Below are positions 46,306-64,000 of a DNA stretch of 64,000 bases, one piece after another; the stretch's first letter is position 1, and each line of letters starts with the position of its first letter. Both the position numbers and the translations under genes were made by a program. The stretch comes from Aerococcus sp. Lineage in GTDB: Bacteria > Bacillota > Bacilli > Lactobacillales > Aerococcaceae. Below the pieces are notes generated by a model that ran no database searches, was not told the origin of the DNA, and saw only the letters and a program-made list of their open reading frames with translations. The stretch covers positions 248,001 through 312,000 of the forward strand of contig JAUMZE010000001.1 of NCBI GenBank assembly GCA_030528285.1. Reading direction: 5' to 3'.

Positions 46306-47448
46306 TTACAATGCTTCCTGGGATAGGGTTCGAATGGCACTAATAGCGGTGTCGATCTCTTCTACCGTCGTATAATGGGACAGACTGAACCGCACGGCCC
46401 CCTGACGCTCAGTGTGGAAGGTCTGATGCATCAGTGGCGCACAATGCCCCCCTGTCCGCACAATGATGCCATAACGATCCGCCAGCGCTAAACCAATGTC
46501 TGCGGAGTCCTCCTCACCGATATTGATCGTGACAATCGGCACATGTTCCTCTTCCTCCATGTCGCCATAGATCGTAACATTGGGGAGGTCCTTGATGCCG
46601 TCCACCAAATATTTTCTTAGAGAGGCCTCCTCTTGTTCGATCCGTTCGACCCCGTAATCGAGGAGGTACCCCAATGCGGCGTTCAGTCCCGCTAACCCGT
46701 GACCGTTCATCGTCCCCGCTTCCAGATGGGTCGGATATTCCTCTGGTTGCGTATGAGAAAAGGTATCGATCCCTGTCCCCCCCAATTTCAGTGGCGGAAT
46801 CATTACACCCGGACGAATGTACATACCACCTGTCCCTTGGGGGCCCATCAGACTCTTGTGCCCGGTAAAGCAGAGCACATCAATCTTTAGTTTTTGAACA
46901 TCGATTGAACGCGCGCCACAGGTTTGGGCAGCATCGACAATGAGTAATAAGCCATGTCGATGCGCGATTTCACTCACCTGATCCAGTGACGTCACATTTC
47001 CCGTTAAATTCGAAGCATGGGTAATCACGATACCTTTTGTATTGGGTTGAATGGCAGATTCAAGATCTGATAAGTGGATATTACCCTGGTGATCGGCAGG
47101 GAGGATCGTCAATTCAACGCCTCGCTCCGCCATCAGGTAACACGGCCGGAGCACCGAATTGTGTTCCATTGTCGTTGTAATCAGATGATCGCCCGGTTGG
47201 AATAACCCTTGGATTGCGATATTCAAGCTCTCCGTCACGTTCGACGTAAATACCACCTGCGCAGAGCCCTCACCATGAAGCAGTTGATTCATCCGCTCCC
47301 GTGCCTCAAAAATCACGCGGGACGTGGAAAGAGCAGTCGGCGTCCCCCCGCGCCCAGCATTTCCTAGATGATCCAATGCATCGATCATTGCTTCCTTTAC
47401 AACAGCTGGTTTTCTGAGAGTTGTCGCCCCATTATCTAAATAAATCAT
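46306..47448 (-). CDS. Class V aminotransferase, cysteine desulfurase/selenocysteine lyase-like (EF2568 type)
   Basis: 380-residue PLP enzyme. It begins MIYLDNGATTLRKPAVVKEAM; PLP Lys198 lies in FTGHKSLMGPQGTGG and the catalytic Cys336 in RTGGHCAPLMHQTF. The EHNSVLRP and LNLTG-like substrate segments and the overall layout match the TIGR01977/EF2568 subfamily rather than SufS or IscS. Members mobilise S or Se from cysteine or selenocysteine. The E. faecalis EF2568 gene sits beside selD in a selenium-dependent molybdenum-hydroxylase cluster. With a probable selenoprotein 16 kb away, a role in selenium delivery is plausible but unproven. Confidence 0.85.
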   Translation of the reverse strand: MIYLDNGATTLRKPAVVKEAMIDALDHLGNAGRGGTPTALSTSRVIFEARERMNQLLHGEGSAQVVFTSNVTESLNIAIQGLFQPGDHLITTTMEHNSVLRPCYLMAERGVELTILPADHQGNIHLSDLESAIQPNTKGIVITHASNLTGNVTSLDQVSEIAHRHGLLLIVDAAQTCGARSIDVQKLKIDVLCFTGHKSLMGPQGTGGMYIRPGVMIPPLKLGGTGIDTFSHTQPEEYPTHLEAGTMNGHGLAGLNAALGYLLDYGVERIEQEEASLRKYLVDGIKDLPNVTIYGDMEEEEHVPIVTINIGEEDSADIGLALADRYGIIVRTGGHCAPLMHQTFHTERQGAVRFSLSHYTTVEEIDTAISAIRTLSQEAL

Positions 47449-51998: not shown

Positions 51999-52913
51999 TT
52001 AAGCTTTAATGACTTCTATCCAGTGCAGGGCATAGCGCACGAGCACATAAAAGACCGCAGCCGTTGCAATGGCCTCCTCAATCAATACGAGTGGCATCAA
52101 CCCGGACAAGTTGAACGCCGGATTGGTGACGACGAGTTTCAAACTGGTGGCTGTAATCACCAATGGGAAGGTAAAGGCCGAATAACTCGGTCTAAATCCG
52201 CCACGATGCCACCCTGGGAGGTTGAACATCACAATCACATATAATAATTGTGAGAGGCACATCATCCCAAGTGAGAACGCAGAAAGTGGGGTAAGAAAAC
52301 TACTCATGTAACCGGCTAATAACAGAGACGTCGGTGCACAGAGAATGGTAGATGATGGTTTTGCAGAGAACAGCACCTCGCCAATTTTTACCAAGCGATA
52401 AATAATCAACGGAATCACAATAATCCCCATTACAAAGCCTCCGTAAAACACCCACTGACCGATCATTTTCAGCTGGAAGGCGCCGGATGTGACACTCGCA
52501 ACAACGGGCCCCACGTAGACGACCGCCCAACTCGCAAAGACCTGTTTGATCTGGAATTTCTAAACGAACCGCCACGTGAATAAAAGCAGCAAATAGAGAT
52601 GCAGCCCTAATCCAAAGAACCAAATTCAGCGCGCATCCATCCCGAGATATGGCTTCAGATAGGTCGCCAAAAGCATCGTACTCATACTATACGTAGGGAA
52701 GACCGATGCCATCAAAACCTGCTTGCGCTCCCGTTGAAGTTGATCCCAGTTTAAGAGAATCCGTAGCGTAATCAGGATAAAAATCCCAATACCGATAATC
52801 CCACATCCCATTCGAATCAGTGGATGGTGGGATTGTAGGAGATTCCCCAAAGCAAACGTGCCGAGCATCAGCCCCGTAATCGGGAGTGGTAAGTGACTCA
52901 ATTTATCTTTCAT
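51999..52913 (-). pseudogene. TDT-family (tellurite-resistance/dicarboxylate) permease with two in-frame stop codons
   Basis: The start MKDKLSHLPLPITGLMLGTFALGNLL is typical of the SLAC1/TehA/TDT family and lies within the last 11 bases of the sseA-like gene. A single frame runs to 51999 and would encode about 304 residues with ten membrane segments (PTYSMSTMLLATYLKP, then WFFGLGLHLYLLLLF, then VGPVVASVTSG and FNLPGWHRGG). It is interrupted by TGA at 52626-52628 and TAG at 52560-52562, with no frameshift. Two nonsense codons without other damage suggest recent inactivation. Neither position resembles a selenocysteine site. Homologues export sulfite, tellurite-related or dicarboxylate anions. 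Confidence 0.88.
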
Positions 52914-53817
52914 TCACATCCTCCTTAGCGAGTGGTTCATTCGTCTCAAGGGCCCATTCCTGTAGTGACCCATCATAGACTGCTACATGATGATAACCAA
53001 TAACCTCCAATATCTGGGCGAGATAGGCAGCCGCAATTCCAAACCCGCAGTAGGTAATGAGCGGTTGGGATGAATCGGTGAATCCGAGCGCCTCCATTTT
53101 CTTCTTGAGTATATCTACCGGTAACAAAGCCCCTGTGTTAGGATCCGTCAATGACCCAAAGAAACAGTTCTTGGCGTTGGGAATGTGCCCCGCTCGTTCC
53201 TCCTCGAAGGGACACACCTGGCCTAGATACTGGTCTGGACTGAGGGCATCGATCACCCCCGCTGTGTCTCGTTGGCTCGCTACTCGTACATCCTCAACGG
53301 TGGCGTAACGTTCTACTTGCTCGCTTTGTTCAGTGAGTTGGCCTGGCGTCACAGTTGACACTTCATCCGTCACTGGGCGCTTCTCCAGCTGCCACTTAGA
53401 GAGTCCACCATCCAAAATGTGAACGTTAGTGATGCCCTCTAACTGACACTGCCAGCGAAAACGCGCCGCCCACATATCCGCATGTAACGTCGGCGCATCC
53501 CCCATTGCGCCACGATCGTACACCACAATCTGCGTGTCATCCGTCGCGCCCGCTGCCTCGAGTGCAGCTTTCATACGGCGATGTTTTCTATCCACCGTAA
53601 AGAGAATAGCCCCGTCCATCTTATTCACATCCATTAAATCGATGAAATGAGCGCCAGGAATATGGGCTTGTTGATAGGCAGCCTTTGCGGACTGAAGAGT
53701 GGGTGCACTCGATCTATTAAATAAGACGGACGCCTCCACAATCATCAAATTTTCATCCTCTAAATGCTCCGCCAGCCATTTCGTACTCACAAAAATGGGC
53801 ATTGGTGTTTGTGACAT
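52903..53817 (-). CDS. SseA-like two-domain sulfurtransferase (rhodanese)
   Basis: 304 residues behind AGAAAGGAGTGAGAGAAG. Two rhodanese domains: the inactive N-terminal one (about 8-135, with SAKAAYQQAHIPGAHFIDLMDV and VVYDRGAMGDAPTLHADMWAARF) and a catalytic one (about 165-295) with the persulfide Cys257 in ITYCGFGIAAAYLA. The active loop reads CGFGIA, where 3-mercaptopyruvate sulfurtransferases usually have CGSGVT/S. No signal peptide, so cytoplasmic. Third rhodanese-type gene of the 52-64 kb run; its partner acceptor is unknown. Confidence 0.92.
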   Translation of the reverse strand: MSQTPMPIFVSTKWLAEHLEDENLMIVEASVLFNRSSAPTLQSAKAAYQQAHIPGAHFIDLMDVNKMDGAILFTVDRKHRRMKAALEAAGATDDTQIVVYDRGAMGDAPTLHADMWAARFRWQCQLEGITNVHILDGGLSKWQLEKRPVTDEVSTVTPGQLTEQSEQVERYATVEDVRVASQRDTAGVIDALSPDQYLGQVCPFEEERAGHIPNAKNCFFGSLTDPNTGALLPVDILKKKMEALGFTDSSQPLITYCGFGIAAAYLAQILEVIGYHHVAVYDGSLQEWALETNEPLAKEDVNER

Positions 53818-53837: not shown

Positions 53838-54719
53838 TTAAAAATCAACCTGTAACCATGTGTTATAAATATGACCCCGCAATGTCTCTGCCTCCTTGAC
53901 ACGCGGTAGATTCAGAGAGACTGATTGCTGCAAGCCGTTCGCGCCTACCTCTGTGGTGAGCCACCCGTGAGTCAGTCCCTCGACGCTCAAGGTACTGTGG
54001 AGCCACTCCTCCTGGAAGTACTCGAGATGAACGAGATAACTCGCAGCGAGCGTATCCCAATTGTAGAAGCCATCAATTCCATAAATATCACGATTATCTT
54101 GGAACCACCCCTCTGAATAGCGTTCAATCAGCTGAACGACATGACGATTTTGATACCGCCCGAAATGTGCCTCGTAATGATCCTCTGTGAACGGCAGATC
54201 GAGGCAATGATTGCCCGTCATAATCGCTAAGTTGGGTGTTTCTGTGAGGACATGAAAACTCGCGACAGGATCACACGAGAAATTTAGCTCCTGCATTTCC
54301 TGTTTCTGGAACTGGAGCGGCGCTGTTTTTCCACCCATGAGAACAATTTGTTTCACCTGCGAGAAAAATGTGGGATCCATGAGCCCCGCGCCCCAGAGAT
54401 TCGTCAATGAGCCTGTCGCTACAATTGCTAATTCCCCCGGATAGGTTCTCACCCACTGAACGAGTTGGTGACTAGCGGGATTGTCATAGTCCCCGATCAT
54501 CCGTCCCCCTGCAAAATAAGGAATCTCCTCGCGCCCTAATGTTTGGAGGAGGCGATGGGTATTTTGAGTGACGATATCAATCAGACTGTTGCCATATGTC
54601 CCAGTAATCCCGATTACTTCTACCTCTGGGGAACCTAAAAGATACAGGAGCGCTAATCCATCGTCAATGTCTCTTTGTGGCGTGAAAAAGGTATTATCAA
54701 AATCAATCACGACTTTCAT
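53838..54719 (-). CDS. Inosine-uridine nucleoside hydrolase family protein
   Basis: 293 residues from the ATG at 54719, directly after AAGGAGGATCCT and overlapping the upstream ATPase gene by 17 bases. The calcium-binding aspartate cluster near the N-terminus is modified: IDFDNTFFTPQRDIDDGLALLYLL has an eight-residue insertion compared with the usual DTDPGxDDAxA. LVLMGG-like IVLMGGKTAP, the MTGNHCLDLPFT region and DGFYNWDTLAASYL (the late catalytic Asp) are present. It would release bases from ribonucleosides or nicotinamide riboside. Its place inside an ABC importer/rhodanese operon suggests that the importer's cargo may be nucleoside-like. Confidence 0.87.
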   Translation of the reverse strand: MKVVIDFDNTFFTPQRDIDDGLALLYLLGSPEVEVIGITGTYGNSLIDIVTQNTHRLLQTLGREEIPYFAGGRMIGDYDNPASHQLVQWVRTYPGELAIVATGSLTNLWGAGLMDPTFFSQVKQIVLMGGKTAPLQFQKQEMQELNFSCDPVASFHVLTETPNLAIMTGNHCLDLPFTEDHYEAHFGRYQNRHVVQLIERYSEGWFQDNRDIYGIDGFYNWDTLAASYLVHLEYFQEEWLHSTLSVEGLTHGWLTTEVGANGLQQSVSLNLPRVKEAETLRGHIYNTWLQVDF

Positions 54720-55788
54720 AGGATCCTCCTTGATATTGTTGTTCACTGAGACACCATAATTGATCCGTGGCAAAGTCAATAGCAACCTGATGCCCGATTT
54801 GGTAGTGTGAGGACATTTGTTTTTGGTTAGAGATATGCGCATACCACACAATCCCACGATCATGCGTCAGCTCTATTCGTGTATAAGCAAGATAAGTCCA
54901 GACACCTGTGACGGTCCAATCCCGTTTCGATTCTCTTTGATTTGACGCCTCCGACAGCGTGAGGGCATTGGGCGAGAGGATTCCCACGTATTCCCTATCT
55001 GGCAGTGTTTGCGTCGTGAGTTTGCGCCTAAAAAGTGAGGTTTCAAATACTTGGTCATGTACTTCGCCATGAATCACATTTCCTTTTGAAAAATACCGGT
55101 TTACGATGGCGTTTTGCGGGTGATTCATGAGTATTTCCGGCGTATCAAATTGCTGCAAGCGATGGTCATGGAGGAAGGCCACCCGTGAACTGAGGGTGAT
55201 CGCCTCGTTCGCATCATGGGTGATCAGGAGGGTTTTGAGTTGGTACTGTGCTTGAATCCGGCGAATGAAATCATGCATCTCTAGCCGTAATGTCTCATCT
55301 AACCCAGAGAACGGTTCATCTAGCAGTAACAGGCGCGGTTTCGTTGCCAGAGCGCGCGCAATGGCGACCCGCTGCTGTTGCCCACCTGATAGTGAGGAGA
55401 TACGCCTAGATGCAAAACCTGCCAGCTTCACATCCGCCAACAATTGCTGAATCTGCGCGTCCCATTCTGAACGGGGAATCCCCGCCATCTTCATCGGAAA
55501 GGCAATATTCTCTTTGACATTCAAATGTGGAAAGAGGCGCAGATCCTGAAAAACTAACGCAATCCCACGCTCTTGAGGAGATTTCTGATTGAGGTCTTCG
55601 CCATCTAATAGCATCTCTCCCTGATCGCTCTCAATCAGTCCCGCAATGGTTTTGATCAAGGTAGTCTTCCCACTGCCGGACTGCCCTAAGAGCGATACCA
55701 CCTCACCGTCGCTGATATCGAGATTGATCTCTGTTAAGATTTCCTTGTGGTCGAGGGTGACACTCAGTTGTTTAATCGTTAAGCTCAT
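54703..55788 (-). CDS. ABC transporter ATP-binding protein, YnjD/PotA-like
   Basis: 361 residues from the ATG at 55788 (MSLTIKQLSVTLDHKEI). AGGAGG lies 12 bases upstream, slightly far, and the reading frame open further upstream lacks a better start. Walker A GQSGSGKTT, Q-loop VFQDLRLFPH, signature LSGGQQQRVAIARAL, Walker B LLLLDEPFSGLD and switch His in ITHDANEA, then a C-terminal TOBE-like domain (about 245-361). With the two permeases and the lipoprotein upstream it forms a complete importer resembling E. coli YnjBCD, whose substrate is not established. Confidence 0.9.
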   Translation of the reverse strand: MSLTIKQLSVTLDHKEILTEINLDISDGEVVSLLGQSGSGKTTLIKTIAGLIESDQGEMLLDGEDLNQKSPQERGIALVFQDLRLFPHLNVKENIAFPMKMAGIPRSEWDAQIQQLLADVKLAGFASRRISSLSGGQQQRVAIARALATKPRLLLLDEPFSGLDETLRLEMHDFIRRIQAQYQLKTLLITHDANEAITLSSRVAFLHDHRLQQFDTPEILMNHPQNAIVNRYFSKGNVIHGEVHDQVFETSLFRRKLTTQTLPDREYVGILSPNALTLSEASNQRESKRDWTVTGVWTYLAYTRIELTHDRGIVWYAHISNQKQMSSHYQIGHQVAIDFATDQLWCLSEQQYQGGSYESRD

Positions 55789-55807
55789 ATTTGTTGCTGT
55801 CCTCCTA

Positions 55808-56611
55808 TCATGCGTGTCGCTGTTGATATCTCTTAACGCCCATTTCAACGAGGGCAAATAATGCCACCGTCAATATGAGAAAGACGAGGCTGTACACACT
55901 CGCAATAGTGCGGTCGTTCGCCTGTAAATACGGAAAGATTTTTGTAGCGAGTGTTTGTACCATCCCTCCACCAATCAGTTGCGTTAAGAAATATTGACTG
56001 AAGGACACAATGTAACTCATCACAAACGCCACCAGTAACACCGGTGACAATAACGGCAGCGTGATTGTGACGGTTGTTCGCCATGCGGATGCCCCGAGCA
56101 CATGGGCCTCCTCCTCGAGTTTGGGGATTTGTCCACTGTATGCATTCAGTATGAGGAGTGCCGCATAAGGCAGTGAGTAAATCAAATGTGACAGGATCAC
56201 ACCCACACTCGTATTCGCAAATCCTAAACGAATAAAAGCGGGATGAATCCCCATCCCAAAGACCGTCGCAGGAATCAGTAATGGTAACACCACCAGAAAG
56301 CGAATGAGTTTCTGGATGCTTTTGGACTGCCCTACGTATACTTTGGCGGTTAAGAGTGCGATCACGATTGACAAGAAGCTCACACTCAAGGAAATAAAGA
56401 TATTATTTCTAAGAACTGCTAAGAGCGAGGTGGATTCCATCTGGAGCTGCTGCCACCCGCGTAAACTGAAACGCTCCGGTAAGAGGTTCGGCCAGGGCCA
56501 CCGCGCAGTGAAACTCCACACCAGTAATAGGCAGAGTGGAAAGAGAATCACCACTAAGAGGATCCCAATGACGAGGCGTTCACTGATTGAGCTCGATTTA
56601 ACTCCCTTCAT
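55808..56611 (-). CDS. ABC transporter permease, second YnjC-like half
   Basis: 267 residues with six membrane segments and the ATPase-contact loop EEEAHVLGASAWRTTVTITLPLLSP (near 170-195). The start overlaps the preceding permease stop (TAATG) with GAGGAGG upstream. E. coli YnjC is one polypeptide with two permease domains; here the halves are separate genes. Membrane component of the importer. Confidence 0.87.
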   Translation of the reverse strand: MKGVKSSSISERLVIGILLVVILFPLCLLLVWSFTARWPWPNLLPERFSLRGWQQLQMESTSLLAVLRNNIFISLSVSFLSIVIALLTAKVYVGQSKSIQKLIRFLVVLPLLIPATVFGMGIHPAFIRLGFANTSVGVILSHLIYSLPYAALLILNAYSGQIPKLEEEAHVLGASAWRTTVTITLPLLSPVLLVAFVMSYIVSFSQYFLTQLIGGGMVQTLATKIFPYLQANDRTIASVYSLVFLILTVALFALVEMGVKRYQQRHA

Positions 56612-57471
56612 TAGCCGTGATCCTCCTCTCTAGACATGGACAACAGATAACCGACAACACATATAATCCCGATCAACGCCATCACGACATTCATCACCAT
56701 CGCATACGGCCTGTGCCTGAGATCCGGATAGGTATAAGCCACATACGCTAATTCAGGGAGCGTCTGTGGCACAGTGGGGCCCAGCAGTTTCGGGAGTTCA
56801 TACGCCCCCACCGCATAAGCAAAAATAATACAGAAACTAGACGCCAAGGTGTGCCAGCAGTTAGGGAGCGTCACCTGCCAGAATGTCTGCCAGCGTGTCG
56901 CCCCGAGTGTCAGTGCTACCGGGGTGAAACGCTCCGTATATTCCTTCATCAAAGGATAGCAGAAGAAGACAATGAATGGTACTTCCTTCCAAAGATAAGC
57001 AAGAGTAATGCCAATCGCATTCTCGTGGAACACCCACTGTGACATCCCATCTGAGAGTTTTTGGCCTCCCATTGCCATTAAGAGGCGTGCGATGAGTCCA
57101 GCCTTCGTAAACAGGAGTAAGACAAACAGTGCCACTATCAGATGTGGCACCACAATTGGGAGCTGGAAGAGATGCAATAATCGTTCAGACTGAGATGCTT
57201 TGTTCAACATCCAATAACAAATCAGGAGGGCAATGAGGAGGGAGAGCCCTGCACTCAAAAATCCAACTTTGAGTGTAAACCAGAGTCCCTGAATAAAACT
57301 CGGGTTCGAAAAAACTTCTTGGTAATATTGTCCCGTAATGGTCGTTAAATGAACGGCCGGGATCCAGCCCACACTCTGAAGGACACTGTTGACTAATCCA
57401 TAAACAAGTACCCCAGCTAGTACTAACTGGGGTAAGAATAAACAAATAGTGATAAACCGTTTGGATATCAT
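56611..57471 (-). CDS. ABC transporter permease, first YnjC-like half
   Basis: 286 residues, six membrane segments, EAA loop near 175-200 (FTPVALTLGATRWQTFWQVTLPN). Its ATG overlaps the stop of the binding-protein gene (ATGA at 57468-57471), so translation is coupled. Pairs with the next permease. Confidence 0.87.
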   Translation of the reverse strand: MISKRFITICLFLPQLVLAGVLVYGLVNSVLQSVGWIPAVHLTTITGQYYQEVFSNPSFIQGLWFTLKVGFLSAGLSLLIALLICYWMLNKASQSERLLHLFQLPIVVPHLIVALFVLLLFTKAGLIARLLMAMGGQKLSDGMSQWVFHENAIGITLAYLWKEVPFIVFFCYPLMKEYTERFTPVALTLGATRWQTFWQVTLPNCWHTLASSFCIIFAYAVGAYELPKLLGPTVPQTLPELAYVAYTYPDLRHRPYAMVMNVVMALIGIICVVGYLLSMSREEDHG

Positions 57472-58742
57472 TTGCCAACAACCTCTTCTTGCCAGATTTC
57501 TTCAATCAATGGCACAAAGGCAGATGGTGGTTCTGGTAAGCGATGTTTCAATAAGTCTTCTTGAGAAATAATCCCTTCGCCGAGTTTCACCTCACTGAAA
57601 TCCTGCTGCTGGTCTTTCGATAATTTGTCATTATCAACAACCGGGATATTCTTCAGTTCTTTGTAGCGGGAGAGCTGCATTTCCGGAGACATCATCTCGT
57701 TAATGGCAACCATCGCACCTGGAATATTGCCGGAGTTCTTCGCAATGCCCATGTAGTTGGTGTTACCGATCGTTCCCTTATCGAAAATAAAGGTTTCACT
57801 CTTTTCAGGGTAGCGCCCTTCTTCCAATCCGGTCGCATTATCGAAGGAACCATAAGACACATGGAAGATGAGTTCCCCATTTTCATACATCTTCTCCTGT
57901 TCCGTGGAGGATGATGGGAAGGATTTGCCTTGATTCCAGAGATAGGGATTGAGTTCTCTCAGATAAGCGAGGGCTGGTTCAATCAATTTCTTGACATTTT
58001 CCTTATTGATATCTTTCATCTCGGTGAATTTCTTAGGATCGACAAATTCATAGATAATGTTGCGGACGAATGCACTCCCGGTGAAATCTGGTAAAGCTGG
58101 ATAGGTCACTTGGCCCGGATGTGCTTTCGCAAATTCAAGGAACTCTTGGGCATTCTTTGGCGTTTCTGGGGCTTTCGCGCTGTCCTTCATCATGACTAAT
58201 TGAGCTTTCCCATACGGTGCTTCATAGCCGTCTATCGGATAACCAAAGTCTTGCTTCACTTCGTTATCGTCCTGATTAATATACTGTTTGAAGTTTGGCA
58301 GCGCGCTGGTGAATGGTCCATAGAGGAGATCATTTTCTTTAGCTGTTTTGAAGTTCTCCCCATTGATCCAAATCATATCAATATCGGAGTCTTTCTTATC
58401 GGCTTGTTTCTCGTTGGTCATTTGATTGAGGATGTCCTCAATATCCATGCCGACGATATTCATCTTGATATTGTATTTTTCCTTCATGTGAGGCGCATAT
58501 ACGTTTTTGAGCCAGTTATTGAGCTGTTCATCGCCACCCCAACCGTAGAAAGTGACCTCGGTGCCTTCTGCTTTTTTCTTGAGGTCGTCAAAACTCATAT
58601 CACTGTAGTTTTCAGTTTTGACTTCACTGGAACTTTGGCTCTGTGCGGTTTTATCATTGGATGATTGGCATCCAAATAAGAAGACAAAACAGAGCAAAAA
58701 GAGTGATAGGAGTGTCTTGGCTTTCTTATGCTGATTCATCAT
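57468..58742 (-). CDS. ABC transporter substrate-binding lipoprotein, YnjB-like
   Basis: 424 residues. Signal peptide MMNQHKKAKTLLSLFLLCFVFLFGC with lipobox LFGC anchors it to the outer face of the membrane. The mature protein includes VTFYGWGGDEQLNNWLKNVYAPHMKEKYNI, DIDMIWINGENFKTAKENDLLYGPFTSALPNFKQYI and YPIDGYEAPYGKAQLV. This layout (WGG near the start, WINGENF, Y-Q-rich middle) is characteristic of YnjB rather than of thiamine or spermidine binding proteins. The start overlaps the stop of the small membrane-protein gene upstream. Ligand unknown. Confidence 0.87.
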   Translation of the reverse strand: MMNQHKKAKTLLSLFLLCFVFLFGCQSSNDKTAQSQSSSEVKTENYSDMSFDDLKKKAEGTEVTFYGWGGDEQLNNWLKNVYAPHMKEKYNIKMNIVGMDIEDILNQMTNEKQADKKDSDIDMIWINGENFKTAKENDLLYGPFTSALPNFKQYINQDDNEVKQDFGYPIDGYEAPYGKAQLVMMKDSAKAPETPKNAQEFLEFAKAHPGQVTYPALPDFTGSAFVRNIIYEFVDPKKFTEMKDINKENVKKLIEPALAYLRELNPYLWNQGKSFPSSSTEQEKMYENGELIFHVSYGSFDNATGLEEGRYPEKSETFIFDKGTIGNTNYMGIAKNSGNIPGAMVAINEMMSPEMQLSRYKELKNIPVVDNDKLSKDQQQDFSEVKLGEGIISQEDLLKHRLPEPPSAFVPLIEEIWQEEVVGK

Positions 58743-59167
58743 TTCACCTCTCTAATATTATTACATGCTTTACAACCCATTCGACTCATCAATACTTGTA
58801 CAATCTGAAGAATGACCACCACCAGCAATAACAGGAGAATCACAAAGTAGCTCGGAATCACACTCCGCGAGAATCCCCACGTTAATCCCGCATAACTGAT
58901 CGATAGAATGAGTGCGAGCCAACCGTGAAGCGTCCGTTTCCGCCACAGTAGGCGCCCAACAATCACTAGGAGAATAGGTGGGAGAAGTTGGATTATCCAC
59001 AGATAATTCTCCTCAATCAGGTGCGAGCGATAGAGGACGGAGCGCATAAAGTTCAAGTGATTCCCATAGAAGTGGGGTGTTTGTGTCATCAGATAGAGTA
59101 GCACGACCTCCACCACATAGAGGAAGCCTTGCACGCCTTTTTTAATCGTCATTCCTAAACATTCCAT
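58739..59167 (-). CDS. Small membrane protein of unknown function between ynjE- and ynjB-like genes
   Basis: 142 residues starting at the ATG two bases after the rhodanese stop; a second ATG five codons later (MTIKKGVQG) has AGGA just before it and is an alternative. Four membrane segments (about 10-30, 55-75, 82-100, 105-130) and a cytoplasmic Cys pair (MGCKACNN) near the C-terminus that could carry sulfur, bind metal or be redox-active. I do not recognise the family. Tight spacing on both sides ties it to the YnjE-like rhodanese and the importer. Confidence 0.75.
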   Translation of the reverse strand: MECLGMTIKKGVQGFLYVVEVVLLYLMTQTPHFYGNHLNFMRSVLYRSHLIEENYLWIIQLLPPILLVIVGRLLWRKRTLHGWLALILSISYAGLTWGFSRSVIPSYFVILLLLLVVVILQIVQVLMSRMGCKACNNIREVK

Positions 59168-59169
59168 AT

Positions 59170-60309
59170 TTAGCTGCGTTCGATCTTGTAGTCGTCACTC
59201 AGGGGATTACCGATTTGGACTTGGTAGCGGACTGGATCTTTCTTGTGTTTGAGATTCCATTCGTACCAACCGCCATCTTGAACCGACGTCTTATCCCAGC
59301 CTGCCTGACGGGTAATGAAGAAGACGGCAGTGTTGCGCCAACCTGTTCCACAGTAGAAGGTGACGTCTTTGTCCTTGGTGATGCCCCAGTCTTTCCACAT
59401 GTTGAAAATTGGGGTTGGATCCTTCAATGTGCCATCTTCATTCGTAAAGTAGTTGAGGTCATACGCGGTTTCACTGGCAGCTGCCCAAACCGCCCCGAAG
59501 ATCTCACCCGCTTTATCGATGTAGTCGTAACCACTCGTCTTGCCCATGAATTCTGGCCAACTGCGCACAGAAGCAACCACTAAGTCAGGATTTGATTCTT
59601 GCGCTTTCAACAGATCATCTGAGGTCTTGATATAAATATCTGGACGTGCAGGATATTTCACACCGAAGTCCTTAGCCACAGTCACAGTTGGGGCATCCTT
59701 GGTCAGCTCTTGACCGAGACTTTCCCAAGCTTTGCGTCCACCATCGAGGATTTTTACCTTGTCAACACCTAGGTAGTAAGCCGCAAAAGCCACGCGGGAA
59801 GCTGCATTAACGTCATCCGCATACACCACTAATTCGGTATCATGAGTAATGCCACGATCGAGGAAGGTCTTCGCTAATTTGTCCGGTTCAAACAAATTCC
59901 AATCGCTGTCTTCCGATTCGACGTCCATAGTATCGATGTGGATGGCACCTGGAATGTGGCCCTTGTTATAGGCCTCATCCCCATATGTTGCCTCTACTAC
60001 TTTGAGGTTCTGTTGATCCTTATTTTGGTCTAATTTACCCTTCAGCCATTGTGCATCTACGAAGAAATCATTATCCGTGATCTTGTCGTGATTGACAAAA
60101 TGCGTCACGTCCTGCGTTGGTGCAGGTGGTTGATAATCCGCACTGTGTACATCCGTTGTTTGACTCTTAGATGTTTGAGTCGATGCCATTTGACTCGACG
60201 CACTCTCACTGGCCTGCGACGAGGAGGCGTTTTGGCTATTATTAGTGCCACAACCTGCAAGTAACACGAATGCAAGCCCTGTTGTTAAACATATCCGTTT
60301 GAGTTTCAT
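59170..60309 (-). CDS. YnjE-like rhodanese lipoprotein (thiosulfate sulfurtransferase)
   Basis: 379 residues. Lipoprotein signal MKLKRICLTTGLAFVLLAGC, then a Ser/Gln/Thr linker. A non-catalytic rhodanese domain (about 85-215, with FFVDAQWLKGKLDQN, NKGHIPGAIHIDTMDV and ELVVYADDVNAASRVAFAAYYLG) is followed by a catalytic one with Cys320 in FYCGTGWRNTAVFFI. The CGTGWR loop is the feature of E. coli YnjE, which is periplasmic. Here a lipid anchor puts it outside the membrane, beside a YnjBCD-like importer, the same gene set as in the E. coli ynj operon. Sulfur (or selenium) donor and acceptor unknown. Confidence 0.92.
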   Translation of the reverse strand: MKLKRICLTTGLAFVLLAGCGTNNSQNASSSQASESASSQMASTQTSKSQTTDVHSADYQPPAPTQDVTHFVNHDKITDNDFFVDAQWLKGKLDQNKDQQNLKVVEATYGDEAYNKGHIPGAIHIDTMDVESEDSDWNLFEPDKLAKTFLDRGITHDTELVVYADDVNAASRVAFAAYYLGVDKVKILDGGRKAWESLGQELTKDAPTVTVAKDFGVKYPARPDIYIKTSDDLLKAQESNPDLVVASVRSWPEFMGKTSGYDYIDKAGEIFGAVWAAASETAYDLNYFTNEDGTLKDPTPIFNMWKDWGITKDKDVTFYCGTGWRNTAVFFITRQAGWDKTSVQDGGWYEWNLKHKKDPVRYQVQIGNPLSDDYKIERS

Positions 60310-60370
60310 ATATTTTCCATCCTTCTATTGATTGATACCCATTATATTGTATGAGGAGCATTCCTCACTG
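60310..60370 (-). promoter_or_regulatory. Possible internal promoter and hairpin before the ynjE-like gene
   Basis: On the minus strand TGAGGA-ATGC-TCCTCA forms a small perfect hairpin, followed by ATACAATATAATGG with a consensus TATAAT. No matching -35 is seen. A ribosome-binding site, GAAGGATGG, precedes the start. Confidence 0.4.
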
Positions 60371-61045
60371 CTAGCGCTGATACTCCGCTTGAATCCGTTC
60401 GATCGCTGCCCCGTGACGAAACAGCCACTGACATTTCTGCATGCGGTAGAGTGAACACAGGGCTCCGTGCTGCTCGAAATAACGCGTGGAGCTAGTAATT
60501 GTTTGCTCCACTAACTGGCAATGAATCCCTGAATCACGCGCCCTTAACGACAGATCATAGTCCTCCATCAATGGGAGGGAGTGGAACCCGCCAACCCTTT
60601 TATAGGCCTCACGAGTCATGAACATCCCCTGATCGCCAAATGCAATGTGACGATAACGCACCCGCCAGTTGGCTCCCCAACTGATGGCTTTGAGGACGGG
60701 ATTTGTCGTCTCATAATGCAGGCGAAAACACCCGAATGCCTCAGTCTGACAGGTCCGTTCAATCAGTGGGAGAGGGGACTCTTGGAACTGGCTATCCGCA
60801 TACAGGAAAAACAATCGCTCCCCCTGACTTTGCTGTACGCCATATTGGAGCTGCGAGCCACGTCCCGGCATCGTATGATAAATAGCATATCCCGCCACTT
60901 GAACGAACGACACGGTTTCATCTTGACTACCTCCATCGACAAAAATCACTTCATGCTGAGGGCCATCTTCCCACGACCGCAATTGCTCCAATAGCTGAGG
61001 CAGGCGCTGGGCTTCATTTTTAACAGGAATGATGATGCTGATCAT
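60371..61045 (-). CDS. Family 2 glycosyltransferase, TIGR04283-like
   Basis: 224 residues. GT-A fold with SIIIPVKNEAQRLPQLLEQL, VIFVDGGSQDET, GRGSQLQYGVQQSQGERLFFLYADSQF (the conserved Asp region) and FGDQGMFMTREAYKRVGGFHSLPLMEDYDLSLRAR. This pattern matches the TIGR04283 group, which databases label arsenosugar-associated because some members lie near arsS. No arsS or arsM is present here. It overlaps the upstream TVP38-like gene by four bases. Acceptor and donor are unknown. Confidence 0.87.
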   Translation of the reverse strand: MISIIIPVKNEAQRLPQLLEQLRSWEDGPQHEVIFVDGGSQDETVSFVQVAGYAIYHTMPGRGSQLQYGVQQSQGERLFFLYADSQFQESPLPLIERTCQTEAFGCFRLHYETTNPVLKAISWGANWRVRYRHIAFGDQGMFMTREAYKRVGGFHSLPLMEDYDLSLRARDSGIHCQLVEQTITSSTRYFEQHGALCSLYRMQKCQWLFRHGAAIERIQAEYQR

Positions 61046-61707
61046 TCAATCGGTCCCCTATTCCCCTGGCGTTTCTTCCAGAAGTAAACCACTACACTCG
61101 TCGTCACCACAAATAACCCAAAGTAAATGAGCGAGCGGACGAACTCAGGGGATGATGGATCGAGGGATTTGTCGCCGATATTGACGTATGCCAATCCTCC
61201 CGGCATAATGCCCAAGGTCGATGCGATTAAGAAGTCGCGGGTTTTGATATCGGTCAACCCACTCACATAATTGATGAGATTATAGGAGATCGCCGGCAAA
61301 ATCCGCAAAATAAAAATCGTCTGCGGCAATTTATCTGTCTGCTGGTAGAGCCACTGGAAGAGCTTGGGATGATTGTTTCTCACATAGTTGCGCACGAGAT
61401 CTCGAGCCAAGTAGCGGGAGATCCAAAACATCGTACACATATTCAAAGCAGCACCAATCAGTACCAAAAACGATCCAAACCACAATCCATAACCAATCCC
61501 ACCGACAATCGCCAACACCAACACTGGAAAGAGAAAAATCGGTAGGAAGATCCACATCAATTCAAAGATCACAATTCCGAGTGGTCCACTATCCACCACA
61601 GCTCGCCGAATCGTTTCAATGCTCATGCCGCGAAATAGGAAGAATCCCACCAGAACAATCACCAAGAACACGACAATCTGTAACAGCCTCTGTTGTTGTT
61701 TGGACAT
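61042..61707 (-). CDS. TVP38/TMEM64 (DedA-superfamily) membrane protein, second copy
   Basis: 221 residues, about five membrane segments. Core motif pieces are FLFPVLVLAIVGGIGYGLWFGSFLVLIGAALN, FWISRYLARDLVRNYV and LRILPAISYNLINYVSGLTDIKTRDFLIASTLGIMPG, which form the VTT-domain re-entrant loops. Likely a lipid scramblase-like or anion-coupled transporter; the substrate is unknown. Its stop overlaps the glycosyltransferase start and it begins 15 bases after the first TVP38-like gene. Confidence 0.88.
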   Translation of the reverse strand: MSKQQQRLLQIVVFLVIVLVGFFLFRGMSIETIRRAVVDSGPLGIVIFELMWIFLPIFLFPVLVLAIVGGIGYGLWFGSFLVLIGAALNMCTMFWISRYLARDLVRNYVRNNHPKLFQWLYQQTDKLPQTIFILRILPAISYNLINYVSGLTDIKTRDFLIASTLGIMPGGLAYVNIGDKSLDPSSPEFVRSLIYFGLFVVTTSVVVYFWKKRQGNRGPIE

Positions 61708-61721
61708 GTTCCCCTCCTATC

Positions 61722-62453
61722 CTATTGTTGGTGTTTGTGACGTTCCTGCCACAGCATCCGCAATACGGAAATCAAAATCGCAACTGCAAATAAAATCAAT
61801 AACCCAGTCACTAAGGCCTGTGCACCTCCGGTCAATTTTCCTCCCGCGTAGGAGTAAATGACGGTGGCGGGCAATTGTCCAATCCCGGTAGCAACCACAA
61901 ATTCCACCACACTCATCGGCATTAATCCAGCTGCAAAACTCACGATATCAAATGGCATAAATGGCAACAAACGTGCGATCAAAATCGTGTGTGTCCCATA
62001 ATGATCGAAGAAGTTCTCGATATTATTAAGTCCTTTTTCACTCGTGATTTTCACAACGAGATCGCGTCCTAGAATCCGCGCTAGATAAAAGCACAAGCAC
62101 GCTGCTACCATGGCACTGAACCAGGATAATAACGCCCCTTGCCACCAGCCGAAGAGATTCGCATTCGCAATCGTAATCAGAAAAGCGGGCAGTGGCGCGA
62201 TGATCGATTGCATAATCATTAATAAGAATGAAATAAGGGCCGCATAAGCACCGTACGAACCAATAAAATCATGCACCGCTTGGAAGTTCCCGGTGGTAAA
62301 CATATAGATGATATGATTCATCATATTACGCAGTGGAGGCACTACCCCGTAGAGAATCAATAATACGACCACCACACCGATTAAGACCCAGCGCTTTTTA
62401 CGGTAGTTTTCGGTGTTCGCTGCTTGTTGCTGTCTGTTCGGTGGCATTGCTTT
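61722..62453 (-). CDS. TVP38/TMEM64 (DedA-superfamily) membrane protein, first copy
   Basis: 243 residues from the ATG at 62453, which follows TTGGAGGAGGA; the ATG three codons later (62444) is nearly as good. A hydrophilic N-terminus, then about six membrane segments with PLPAFLITIANANLFGWWQGALLSWFSAMVAACLCFYLARILGRDLV and RLLPFMPFDIVSFAAGLMPMSVVEFVVATGIGQLPA. DedA-superfamily proteins have been connected with selenite uptake or resistance in Cupriavidus, which fits the setting but is not evidence for this copy. Confidence 0.88.
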   Translation of the reverse strand, partial: KAMPPNRQQQAANTENYRKKRWVLIGVVVVLLILYGVVPPLRNMMNHIIYMFTTGNFQAVHDFIGSYGAYAALISFLLMIMQSIIAPLPAFLITIANANLFGWWQGALLSWFSAMVAACLCFYLARILGRDLVVKITSEKGLNNIENFFDHYGTHTILIARLLPFMPFDIVSFAAGLMPMSVVEFVVATGIGQLPATVIYSYAGGKLTGGAQALVTGLLILFAVAILISVLRMLWQERHKHQQ

Positions 62454-62574
62454 CATTCCTCCTCCAATCAACAAAAATAGGGATGAACGATCTATCCGTC
62501 ACTATCATCAGTTAAAAAGTGCGTGACTGCCTCATTTCATCGGATGATCACTTCATCCCCATTCATTATTTCAT

Positions 62575-63312
62575 TTAATCTTTTACTAATTCGAAGTCGT
62601 GTTCTTTCGTTCCATCATTGGAGTTATAGACGTTACTCCAGCCTTCATCGACCAATTTTTGAGCCGCTTTGTAGGATTTATTTCCGGAGTAGCAATATGT
62701 CATCACCGGTTTATCTTTTGGCACCTGTTTAATTTCTTCATCGAGATTCTTCACATCGATGCGTTTAGCGCCCATCAAGTGGCCCGCTTCATAATCTTTT
62801 TCATCACGAGCATCTAAGATTGTATAGTCACCGGAGTCAGCTGCTTTTTGGAGCGCATCCCCAATCACAAATTGAACTTTGGTGGTGACGGTATATTGAT
62901 GATCTTTGATACCTTCTGCGTTCGATACTTTGTTGAAGCCTTTATCTACGAGTTTCTTCGCTACTACTTCACTCTTATCTTTGGAGTCCGCAATCGTTAC
63001 GATGTCTTTATCCTTGTAGTCGTTTAAGGTATCAGCTTTTGAATCAATATCCGCTTCAGGAATATTAACTGCATATTTCACGGTGCCTTCCTTGTATTCG
63101 TCGCTTGGGCGGACATCAATCACGAGATAGTTCTCTTTTTGCTTCGTGTCTTCCAAAATCTTATCGAGATTCTCACCCGTCATTTCAGAAACAGTGCCCG
63201 GTTTCGCATCACTCTGCGTCGTATTTTGGCCGCAAGCACTCAGCGTAAAAATGGTCAGTGCACTCAATGCTGCTGTCGCTAAACGTTTCATCATACTCGA
63301 TTGCTTTGTCAT
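62575..63312 (-). CDS. Double-rhodanese-domain lipoprotein translationally coupled to the selenoprotein gene
   Basis: 245 residues. The ATG at 63312 overlaps the upstream stop as ATGA; another ATG lies two codons earlier. Signal MTKQSSMMKRLATAALSALTIFTLSAC with lipobox LSAC. Rhodanese domain 1 (about 45-135) has YLVIDVRPSDEYKEGTVKYAVNIP but its active-site loop reads IADSKDKS, without cysteine. Domain 2 (about 150-240) has YTILDARDEKDYEAGHLMGAKRIDV and Cys207 in MTYCYSGNKS. An extracytoplasmic persulfide or selenopersulfide carrier is plausible. Coupling to the selenoprotein gene implies matched expression. Confidence 0.9.
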   Translation of the reverse strand: MTKQSSMMKRLATAALSALTIFTLSACGQNTTQSDAKPGTVSEMTGENLDKILEDTKQKENYLVIDVRPSDEYKEGTVKYAVNIPEADIDSKADTLNDYKDKDIVTIADSKDKSEVVAKKLVDKGFNKVSNAEGIKDHQYTVTTKVQFVIGDALQKAADSGDYTILDARDEKDYEAGHLMGAKRIDVKNLDEEIKQVPKDKPVMTYCYSGNKSYKAAQKLVDEGWSNVYNSNDGTKEHDFELVKD

Positions 63313-63998
63313 TTCCATTTTACAACCTCTTCCTTTCCTCCATTAACAGCCAACGCTAATAATTTTTTAACTGCTTCCGTTTGCATACGACGATCGTGGG
63401 GTTCCTCTGAGAAGGTTTGCCCCAATGGATATGGTGTCACCATGACACGAGGGGGACGTACTTTCTTGATAACATTGGTTAAATGAATCATCGCGGCGGT
63501 ACGAATCCCACGACTCTCAATCTTTCTTTGCATTAATCCCACGGACTGATGACAAATATATCAGCCAGGTGATAATAAAACGATATCGACATGATCTTCT
63601 AATAACATATCCGCCATCATTGGAGCGGTTTTCTTCATTAATTTTGCCGTGCGTGGAATATAACCCATCCAGCCAAAATGTCGGGGTGCGACACTGCCAA
63701 TGACGCCCTCACTTTGAAGTTCTCTCAGTCTTTCGAGCGGGAAGACGATATTAATATCTTCTTTCGCACGTTTCGTATTATAATGATCGTGGTTCACCAC
63801 CAACGTTTGAAAGTCGACATCCCCATCGATCACACGAAAGGTCGGATCCCCCTTCTTCGTATCAAAGGGAGGATCCGTTGCATTGCGAATCCCCGCTGTT
63901 GTCACGAGGGCCACTCTGGCTTCATTCAGAGGCTTTTCCAGCGTCGCAACAGGTGGTTCCTCATCAATCGTAATCACCATATGCTCGGCTACTTTTCC
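63309..63998 (-). CDS. Probable selenoprotein: glycine/betaine/sarcosine/D-proline reductase family, selenoprotein B-like, 5'-partial
   Basis: One frame runs from the window edge to the TGA at 63309-63311 with a single internal TGA at 63561-63563. Upstream reads EKPLNEARVALVTTAG, DPTFRVIDGDVDFQTL and IGSVAPRHFGWMGYI. After the internal TGA the same frame continues with YICHQSVGLMQRKIE and KVRPPRVMVTPYPLGQTF. The TGA therefore stands in SPG-U-YIC-HQSVG, the place where this family carries Sec or Cys in a U/CxxC redox motif (Sec140/Cys143 counting from the ATG at 63980). A SECIS-like hairpin follows. The family usually has about 20 more N-terminal residues, so the true start lies beyond the window. 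Reaction unknown; redox activity on a thiol or C-N/Se substrate is inference. Confidence 0.88.
63531..63563 (-). promoter_or_regulatory. Bacterial SECIS-like element at the in-frame UGA
   Basis: The UGA is at 63561-63563. Nine bases after it CATCAGTCC (63543-63551) pairs with GGATTAATG (63531-63539): eight of nine positions pair, one of them a G-U, around a GTG loop (63540-63542). The loop begins 18 bases after the UGA, inside the 16-37-base window accepted for bacterial SECIS elements, and has G at its first position as SelB recognition usually requires. Confidence 0.75.
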
Positions 63999-64000
63999 GA

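Follow-up and report, generated by a model that had tools for sequence, protein, structure and literature searches.

The sequence comparisons favour, with a probability of about 0.9, the reading of this locus as the gene of a predicted selenoprotein of 241 residues, which would belong to a clade apart from PrdB and GrdB and would be encoded in the context of a ydj/ynj-type module; the gene is most probably that of a selenoprotein and no pseudogene. The window, which is the whole stretch of 64,000 nucleotides analysed here, corresponds to bases 248001-312000 of contig C12, which belongs to a draft genome (1.62 Mb, 85% complete). On its minus strand, the PrdB-like gene occupies positions 63309-64000 and continues beyond the window to 64034 (L009:3309-4034), where an ATG preceded by GGAGG is found 34 bases past the window end (L009:4034). 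The translation from 64034 to 63309 is interrupted solely by the TGA at 63561-63563, which corresponds to the putative selenocysteine (Sec) residue 158 in the U-x-x-C motif SPG-U-YIC-HQSVG and is followed by 83 residues. This frame and its single TGA had been recognised in the preliminary description, which omitted that they lie on the minus strand and counted about 230 codons, the start being outside the window. It was also pointed out there that the real stop is joined to the next start, and indeed the terminal TGA shares an ATGA with the ATG of the next gene at 63312-63309, an alternative ATG for that gene being present at 63318, six bases upstream of this junction. The PrdB-like gene overlaps the preceding gene by 22 bases and the following one, which encodes a rhodanese, by 10 bases (4 if the ATG within the junction is used), and these overlaps suggest a single transcript.

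A scan of species genomes, in which the query was an alignment of ten relatives, revealed 31 named loci in Aerococcus, Facklamia, Atopobacter, Atopococcus, Tissierella, Neobacillus, Calidifontibacillus, Bacillus, Chloroflexota, Nitrospirota and others. The Sec column was occupied by TGA in all 31 of them and by Cys in none; since one of the two search patterns had Cys at this place, the scan was able to detect Cys variants of the motif.

Gene neighbourhood and proposed role

The genes that accompany the selenoprotein gene are also placed on the minus strand. Adjoining it is the gene of a rhodanese-domain protein with an N-terminus that looks lipoprotein-like by eye (62575-63318), whose start overlaps the selenoprotein stop, and beyond it are two genes for TVP38/DedA-type membrane proteins, the first with 50% identity to E. 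coli YdjZ (61722-62474) and the second with a VTT domain and YdjX as its best E. coli match, at 29% (61042-61707). These are accompanied by a TIGR04283 glycosyltransferase (60371-61045; 220 bits, cut-off 182), a YnjE-like rhodanese-family protein of 379 residues with 41% identity to E. coli YnjE (59170-60309), and a YnjB-like ABC transporter substrate-binding protein (57468-58742), which scored 439 bits with NF008633 (cut-off 203) and shares 34% with YnjB. Comparison with E. coli proteins further identified two YnjC-like ABC permeases (56611-57471 and 55808-56611) and a YnjD-like ABC ATPase (54703-55857), while a nucleoside hydrolase family protein (53838-54863) was assigned by profile match and another rhodanese-like protein (52903-53817) showed 25% identity to YnjE. 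A TDT/TehA-like transporter frame, recognised by eye, is split in two in the window (51999-52514 and 52626-52913) and is in one piece in L042 and L049.

Homologues of YdjX/Z, YnjB, YnjC, YnjD and YnjE are thus found together at 54703-62474 by BLAST against E. coli, and YdjY and YnjF had no match among the window proteins compared. In other genomes, BLAST gave 53% between a Facklamia-type cluster protein and YdjY, and 38%, 39% and 29% between Neobacillus proteins and YdjY, YnjB and YnjF, respectively. The likeness to the E. coli ydjXYZ-ynjABCDEF cluster consists of these matches to YdjZ, YnjE, YnjB, YdjX, YnjC and YnjD, whereas the E. coli cluster includes an AhpD-like protein, YnjA, and no PrdB-like gene is annotated there. 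In E. coli K-12, selD is located about 5.6 kb beyond ynjF, with other genes between.

When flanks of 10 kb were compared, a TVP38 homologue was present in 21 and YnjB in 17 of 22 Bacillota loci (L056-L077), against no TVP38 homologue in six control loci of true PrdB. Neither was detected in the flanks of nine non-Bacillota loci, and the ydj/ynj link was also absent in the Tissierella locus. Among the nine named loci of the order, all matched the TIGR04283 protein of the source locus, eight matched its TIGR04282 protein and four matched ArsS. A second copy in genome G076 (L042) and the copy in G092 (L049) were located away from the module, and two Sec-decoding relatives with a true PrdB (L118 and L119) harbored a ydj/ynj and glycosyltransferase cluster without the PrdB-like selenoprotein. 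A DsrE-like gene, judged by eye, adjoins the cluster in L119. Moreover, a YnjB match was obtained in 19 genomes of the order, and seven of these had no tRNA-Sec match.

The role of the PrdB-like protein is most likely that of a selenol reductase of an uptake and redox module. Its gene has no adjoining PrdA and, as the conserved gene context shows, lies in a Gram-positive version of ydjXYZ-ynjABCDEF composed of a YnjBCD-type importer, TVP38 membrane proteins and rhodaneses, to which the order adds TIGR04282 and TIGR04283 glycosyltransferases and a nucleoside hydrolase. The module would import a small compound containing sulfur, selenium or arsenic and pass the substrate on through rhodanese-type carriers, as part of anaerobic metabolism, and the selenol/thiol pair would reduce or reductively cleave it. 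This chemistry is proposed tentatively. Similarly, it is conceivable, at somewhat less than even odds, that the non-PrdB clade of the GRDB type supplies the redox enzyme to a still uncharacterised module for anaerobic uptake, common to Gram-positives and E. coli. The available part of one study (PMC3688515) describes E. coli ydjXYZ-ynjABCD and ynjE as FNR-activated and as coding for predicted proteins and a predicted transporter, and such activation fits an anaerobic role. If the clade did have this role, given that the module is found near selenium genes in both Gram-positives and E. coli, the selenoprotein would be a catalytic handle on the sulfur, selenium or arsenic substrate.

A more specific chemistry would be an arsenosugar or arsenolipid pathway, in which ArsS would generate an adenosyl-arsenical, the nucleoside hydrolase would remove its adenine, the TIGR04282 and TIGR04283 enzymes would extend the sugar, and the selenoprotein would reduce the arsenical or a thio-arsenical. 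NCBIfam calls both glycosyltransferases arsenosugar enzymes, G076, G122 and G182 encode an ArsS over the cut-off within about 5 kb of the selenoprotein gene, an ArsS match was obtained in Facklamia lactis, and frames of the arsenite methyltransferase family that contain an in-frame TGA occur in G225, G138 and G249 (over the cut-off) and in G182 (under it). However, such a pathway is unlikely, since neither ArsS nor ArsM had a match in the source genome (85% complete), the cluster-bearing genomes G138, G195, G209 and G249 showed no ArsS, and the twelve Bacillus/Neobacillus-type loci had no match to either of the two glycosyltransferases. For some relatives, the arsenosugar reading is the best guess at the chemistry, but the source genome has no ArsS or ArsM matches. 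Besides the methyltransferase-family frames, the ArsS frame of G122 also carries a TGA, and these frames are possible further selenoproteins in the order; the frame of G138 has a TAG besides its TGA.

Relationship to PrdB and GrdB

The selenol reductase proposed above is a member of the GRDB superfamily, as indicated by its score of 42.3 bits with Pfam GRDB (PF07355; gathering score 22), and its best NCBIfam match is the PrdB family TIGR04483, with 156.6 bits, under the cut-off of 300. The term GrdB-like reductase used in the preliminary description is adequate at the superfamily level, but the nearest family is PrdB and the genome has a distinct GrdB-type gene. An assignment as true GrdB was rejected, because the GrdB profile TIGR01917 reached only 48.2 bits against a cut-off of 602, covering positions 219-417 of 431 only. 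GrdB shares with the PrdB-like protein the PF07355 domain and the U-x-x-C motif, whereas the product of the GrdB-type gene of the source genome has 431 aa and the motif TST-U-GTCTRCG.

In the tree, 38 PrdB-like rows were placed apart from 12 true PrdB rows, two of which are the same gene, with support of 97/96, in a topology with long branches and an outgroup that does not form one clean side. The PrdB-like protein of Tissierella pigra (L059) grouped with its counterparts from Aerococcus and Atopobacter (99/81), and this placement may be due to horizontal transfer.

It is very improbable that the gene encodes a genuine D-proline reductase PrdB of the proline-reducing Stickland pathway. The kinship is evident from TIGR04483 being the best NCBIfam match, from a similar length and from Sec at the same place of U-x-x-C; nevertheless, besides the sub-cut-off score and the separate clade, the motif SPG-U-YICHQSVG differs from the TAG-U-GTCHR of true PrdB, and the search of 10-kb flanks found PrdA near none of 31 PrdB-like loci against six of six true PrdB loci, a weak PrdA match at L049 being taken as its GrdE. 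The low score, the separate clade and the lack of PrdA nearby altogether indicate that this is no proper D-proline reductase PrdB. From the tree and the kinship with PrdB, the protein should act by relationship like a GRDB-type selenol reductase, yet it is not to be filed as PrdB. A sequence search for relatives of solved structure returned no matches up to an E value of 1.

Sec-containing PrdB and GrdB proteins were already known, according to the accessible portions of two reports (PMC13188914 and PMC2398784). As far as the available text of the latter shows, the PrdB set of marine metagenomes, assigned to pfam07355, sharing U-x-x-C and filed as proline reductase, comprised 235 selenoproteins, besides 110 Cys homologues; this set may include the PrdB-like clade. 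In the titles and abstracts searched, the gene and its context were not described; coverage of subscription papers was thin and the queries combining Aerococcus or Facklamia with selenium were weakly informative, and the newness of clade and context is stated with reserve.

Predicted decoding of the in-frame TGA and its distribution

The preliminary description had named the absence of selA, selB and selC as a refutation of its selenoprotein claim, but these three and selD are all found on the same contig as the PrdB-like gene, where selA (592 bits), selB (369), yedF (218) and selD (386), all above their cut-offs, and tRNA-Sec (67 bits, cut-off 47; called tRNA-SeC with anticodon tca by ARAGORN) are located about 2-26 kb away. 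Past the window end, in the reverse of transcription order, there are a TIGR04282 glycosyltransferase, selA, selB, yedF and selD, and after selD come grdB, grdE, grdX, grdD, grdC, thioredoxin, thioredoxin reductase, grdA and tRNA-Sec. The grd, trx and trxB names were given from sequence and gene order, except for GrdA (PF04723) and GrdB (retrieved as related to the query), and GrdC was read as an open frame only. The gene of the 431-aa GrdB-type protein has one in-frame TGA, at TST-U-GTCTRCG, and the GrdA gene has one at CFV-U, so that, together with the PrdB-like gene, the genome contains three or more candidate genes for selenoproteins.

The glycine reductase locus (grdE, grdB, grdD, grdC, grdA, grdX and the thioredoxin system; L009:13160-19998 and L010:1-2800) is itself an observation for the lactic acid bacteria order. 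Two genes of this part of the contig appear to be broken, one between selD and grdB (L009:11430-12300; binding protein-like, judged by eye) and the other between grdX and grdD (L009:16820-18000; MetE-like, judged by eye). Within the window, a cysteine desulfurase-family protein (46306-47448) scored 413.8 bits with TIGR01977, above the cut-off, and 351.8 bits with selenocysteine lyase SclA, below the cut-off of 525; it is a possible selenium donor, and several relatives have homologues close to their PrdB-like gene.

The preliminary description had proposed an alignment with Sec and Cys homologues, and in the wider comparison Cys appeared in a single true PrdB. In the phylum, the 398 genomes searched gave 32 match rows, of which 31 had one TGA, and the remaining one was the true PrdB L092 of G498, with TGT, a PrdA adjoining it and a tRNA-Sec in the same genome. 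In the order, all 55 match rows listed carry one TGA. In comparison with the closest relative (L056), pN and pS were 0.122 and 0.733 before the TGA and 0.123 and 0.613 after it, and such near-equal values indicate that purifying selection acts to a similar degree on the two parts; the earlier description had remarked that the 83 codons after the TGA keep strong family similarity. An interrupted frame in a draft assembly might suggest that the TGA arose through faulty sequencing, or through a recent nonsense mutation while the gene is decaying, but this is hardly credible given the same codon at every named locus in several phyla, the purifying selection past it and the Sec machinery of the genome. 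A reassigned genetic code was also rejected, because TGA serves as an ordinary stop in nine of the 51 window ORFs of at least 200 aa. The comparisons favour the PrdB-like gene as a selenoprotein gene, in which SelB with Sec-tRNA-Sec would decode the UGA at codon 158, aided by a downstream hairpin, and selenocysteine would be put into the U-x-x-C redox motif.

Bacterial SECIS elements have their loop at about 18 nucleotides from the UGA, and a G is among the first loop bases. The SECIS-like hairpin reported earlier at 18 bases past the UGA is placed there (minus strand, 63532-63550): counting from the T of the TGA, nucleotides 14-21 would pair with 25-32, and the three-base apical loop, nucleotides 22-24 (63542-63540), starts 18 nt past the UGA. 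In the source gene alone, this hairpin was no better than shuffles (z of -0.79, with 32 of 200 shuffles folding equally well; p of 0.29 for energy and 0.20 for paired bases against synonymous shuffles). For the family, 49 hairpin contexts were collected and the counts use 34 rows (27 distinct sequences), leaving out 11 true PrdB rows and four divergent PrdB-like rows (L088, L089, L090 and L096, in which the Ser codon is TCC in three and TCG in one), as well as L057, L058 and L061-L065, which come from repeat genomes already included. In these rows, which are related and hence not independent although drawn from several phyla, the Ser codon of the stem was TCC in 29 of 34 loci, where 4.8 were expected from local codon usage, and 27 of 34 folded better than 95% of synonymous shuffles. 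The seven with p above 0.05 (L009, L056, L043, L060, L044, L046 and L048) all belong to the source order, and L048 keeps four of eight pairs. Clear covariation was observed for pair 18-28 only, between base 3 of the Gln codon and base 1 of the Leu codon, which was G-C, G-U or A-U in every one of the 27 distinct sequences, a conservation reached by none of 5000 shuffles; pair 15-31 was reached by 306 of 5000, pair 16-30 was kept in 18 of 27, and pairs 17-29 and 14-32 were uninformative. The predicted hairpin is therefore supported at the family level and not in the source gene alone.

As the preliminary description had proposed, the genome is Lactobacillales-like, its nearest named relatives being Aerococcus, Facklamia and Atopobacter. 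Its statement that Sec decoding is rare in this order holds insofar as the trait is patchy, as shown by tRNA-Sec in only two of the 11 sampled genomes of the genus, the source genome included; it is not exceptional, since 34 of the 295 genomes sampled in the order, from 16 of 74 genera, have a tRNA-Sec above the cut-off. A PrdB-, PrdB-like or GrdB-type match was found in 31 of the 295, all 31 with tRNA-Sec, against three with tRNA-Sec among the 264 without such a match, and the PrdB-like clade proper (matches above 180 bits) was present in nine. In the part of PMC2432076 that is available, the organism discussed in PMC1794560 is mentioned as being without known Sec genes.

Roughly every ninth genome sampled in the GTDB order encodes a tRNA-Sec, and 31 of those 34 have TGA-containing genes of the glycine/proline reductase type, whose proteins would be split in two by gene callers that halt at TGA. 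Moreover, the conserved context ties the selenoprotein to an E. coli operon that the available text of PMC3688515 describes as FNR-activated and as encoding predicted proteins and a predicted transporter.
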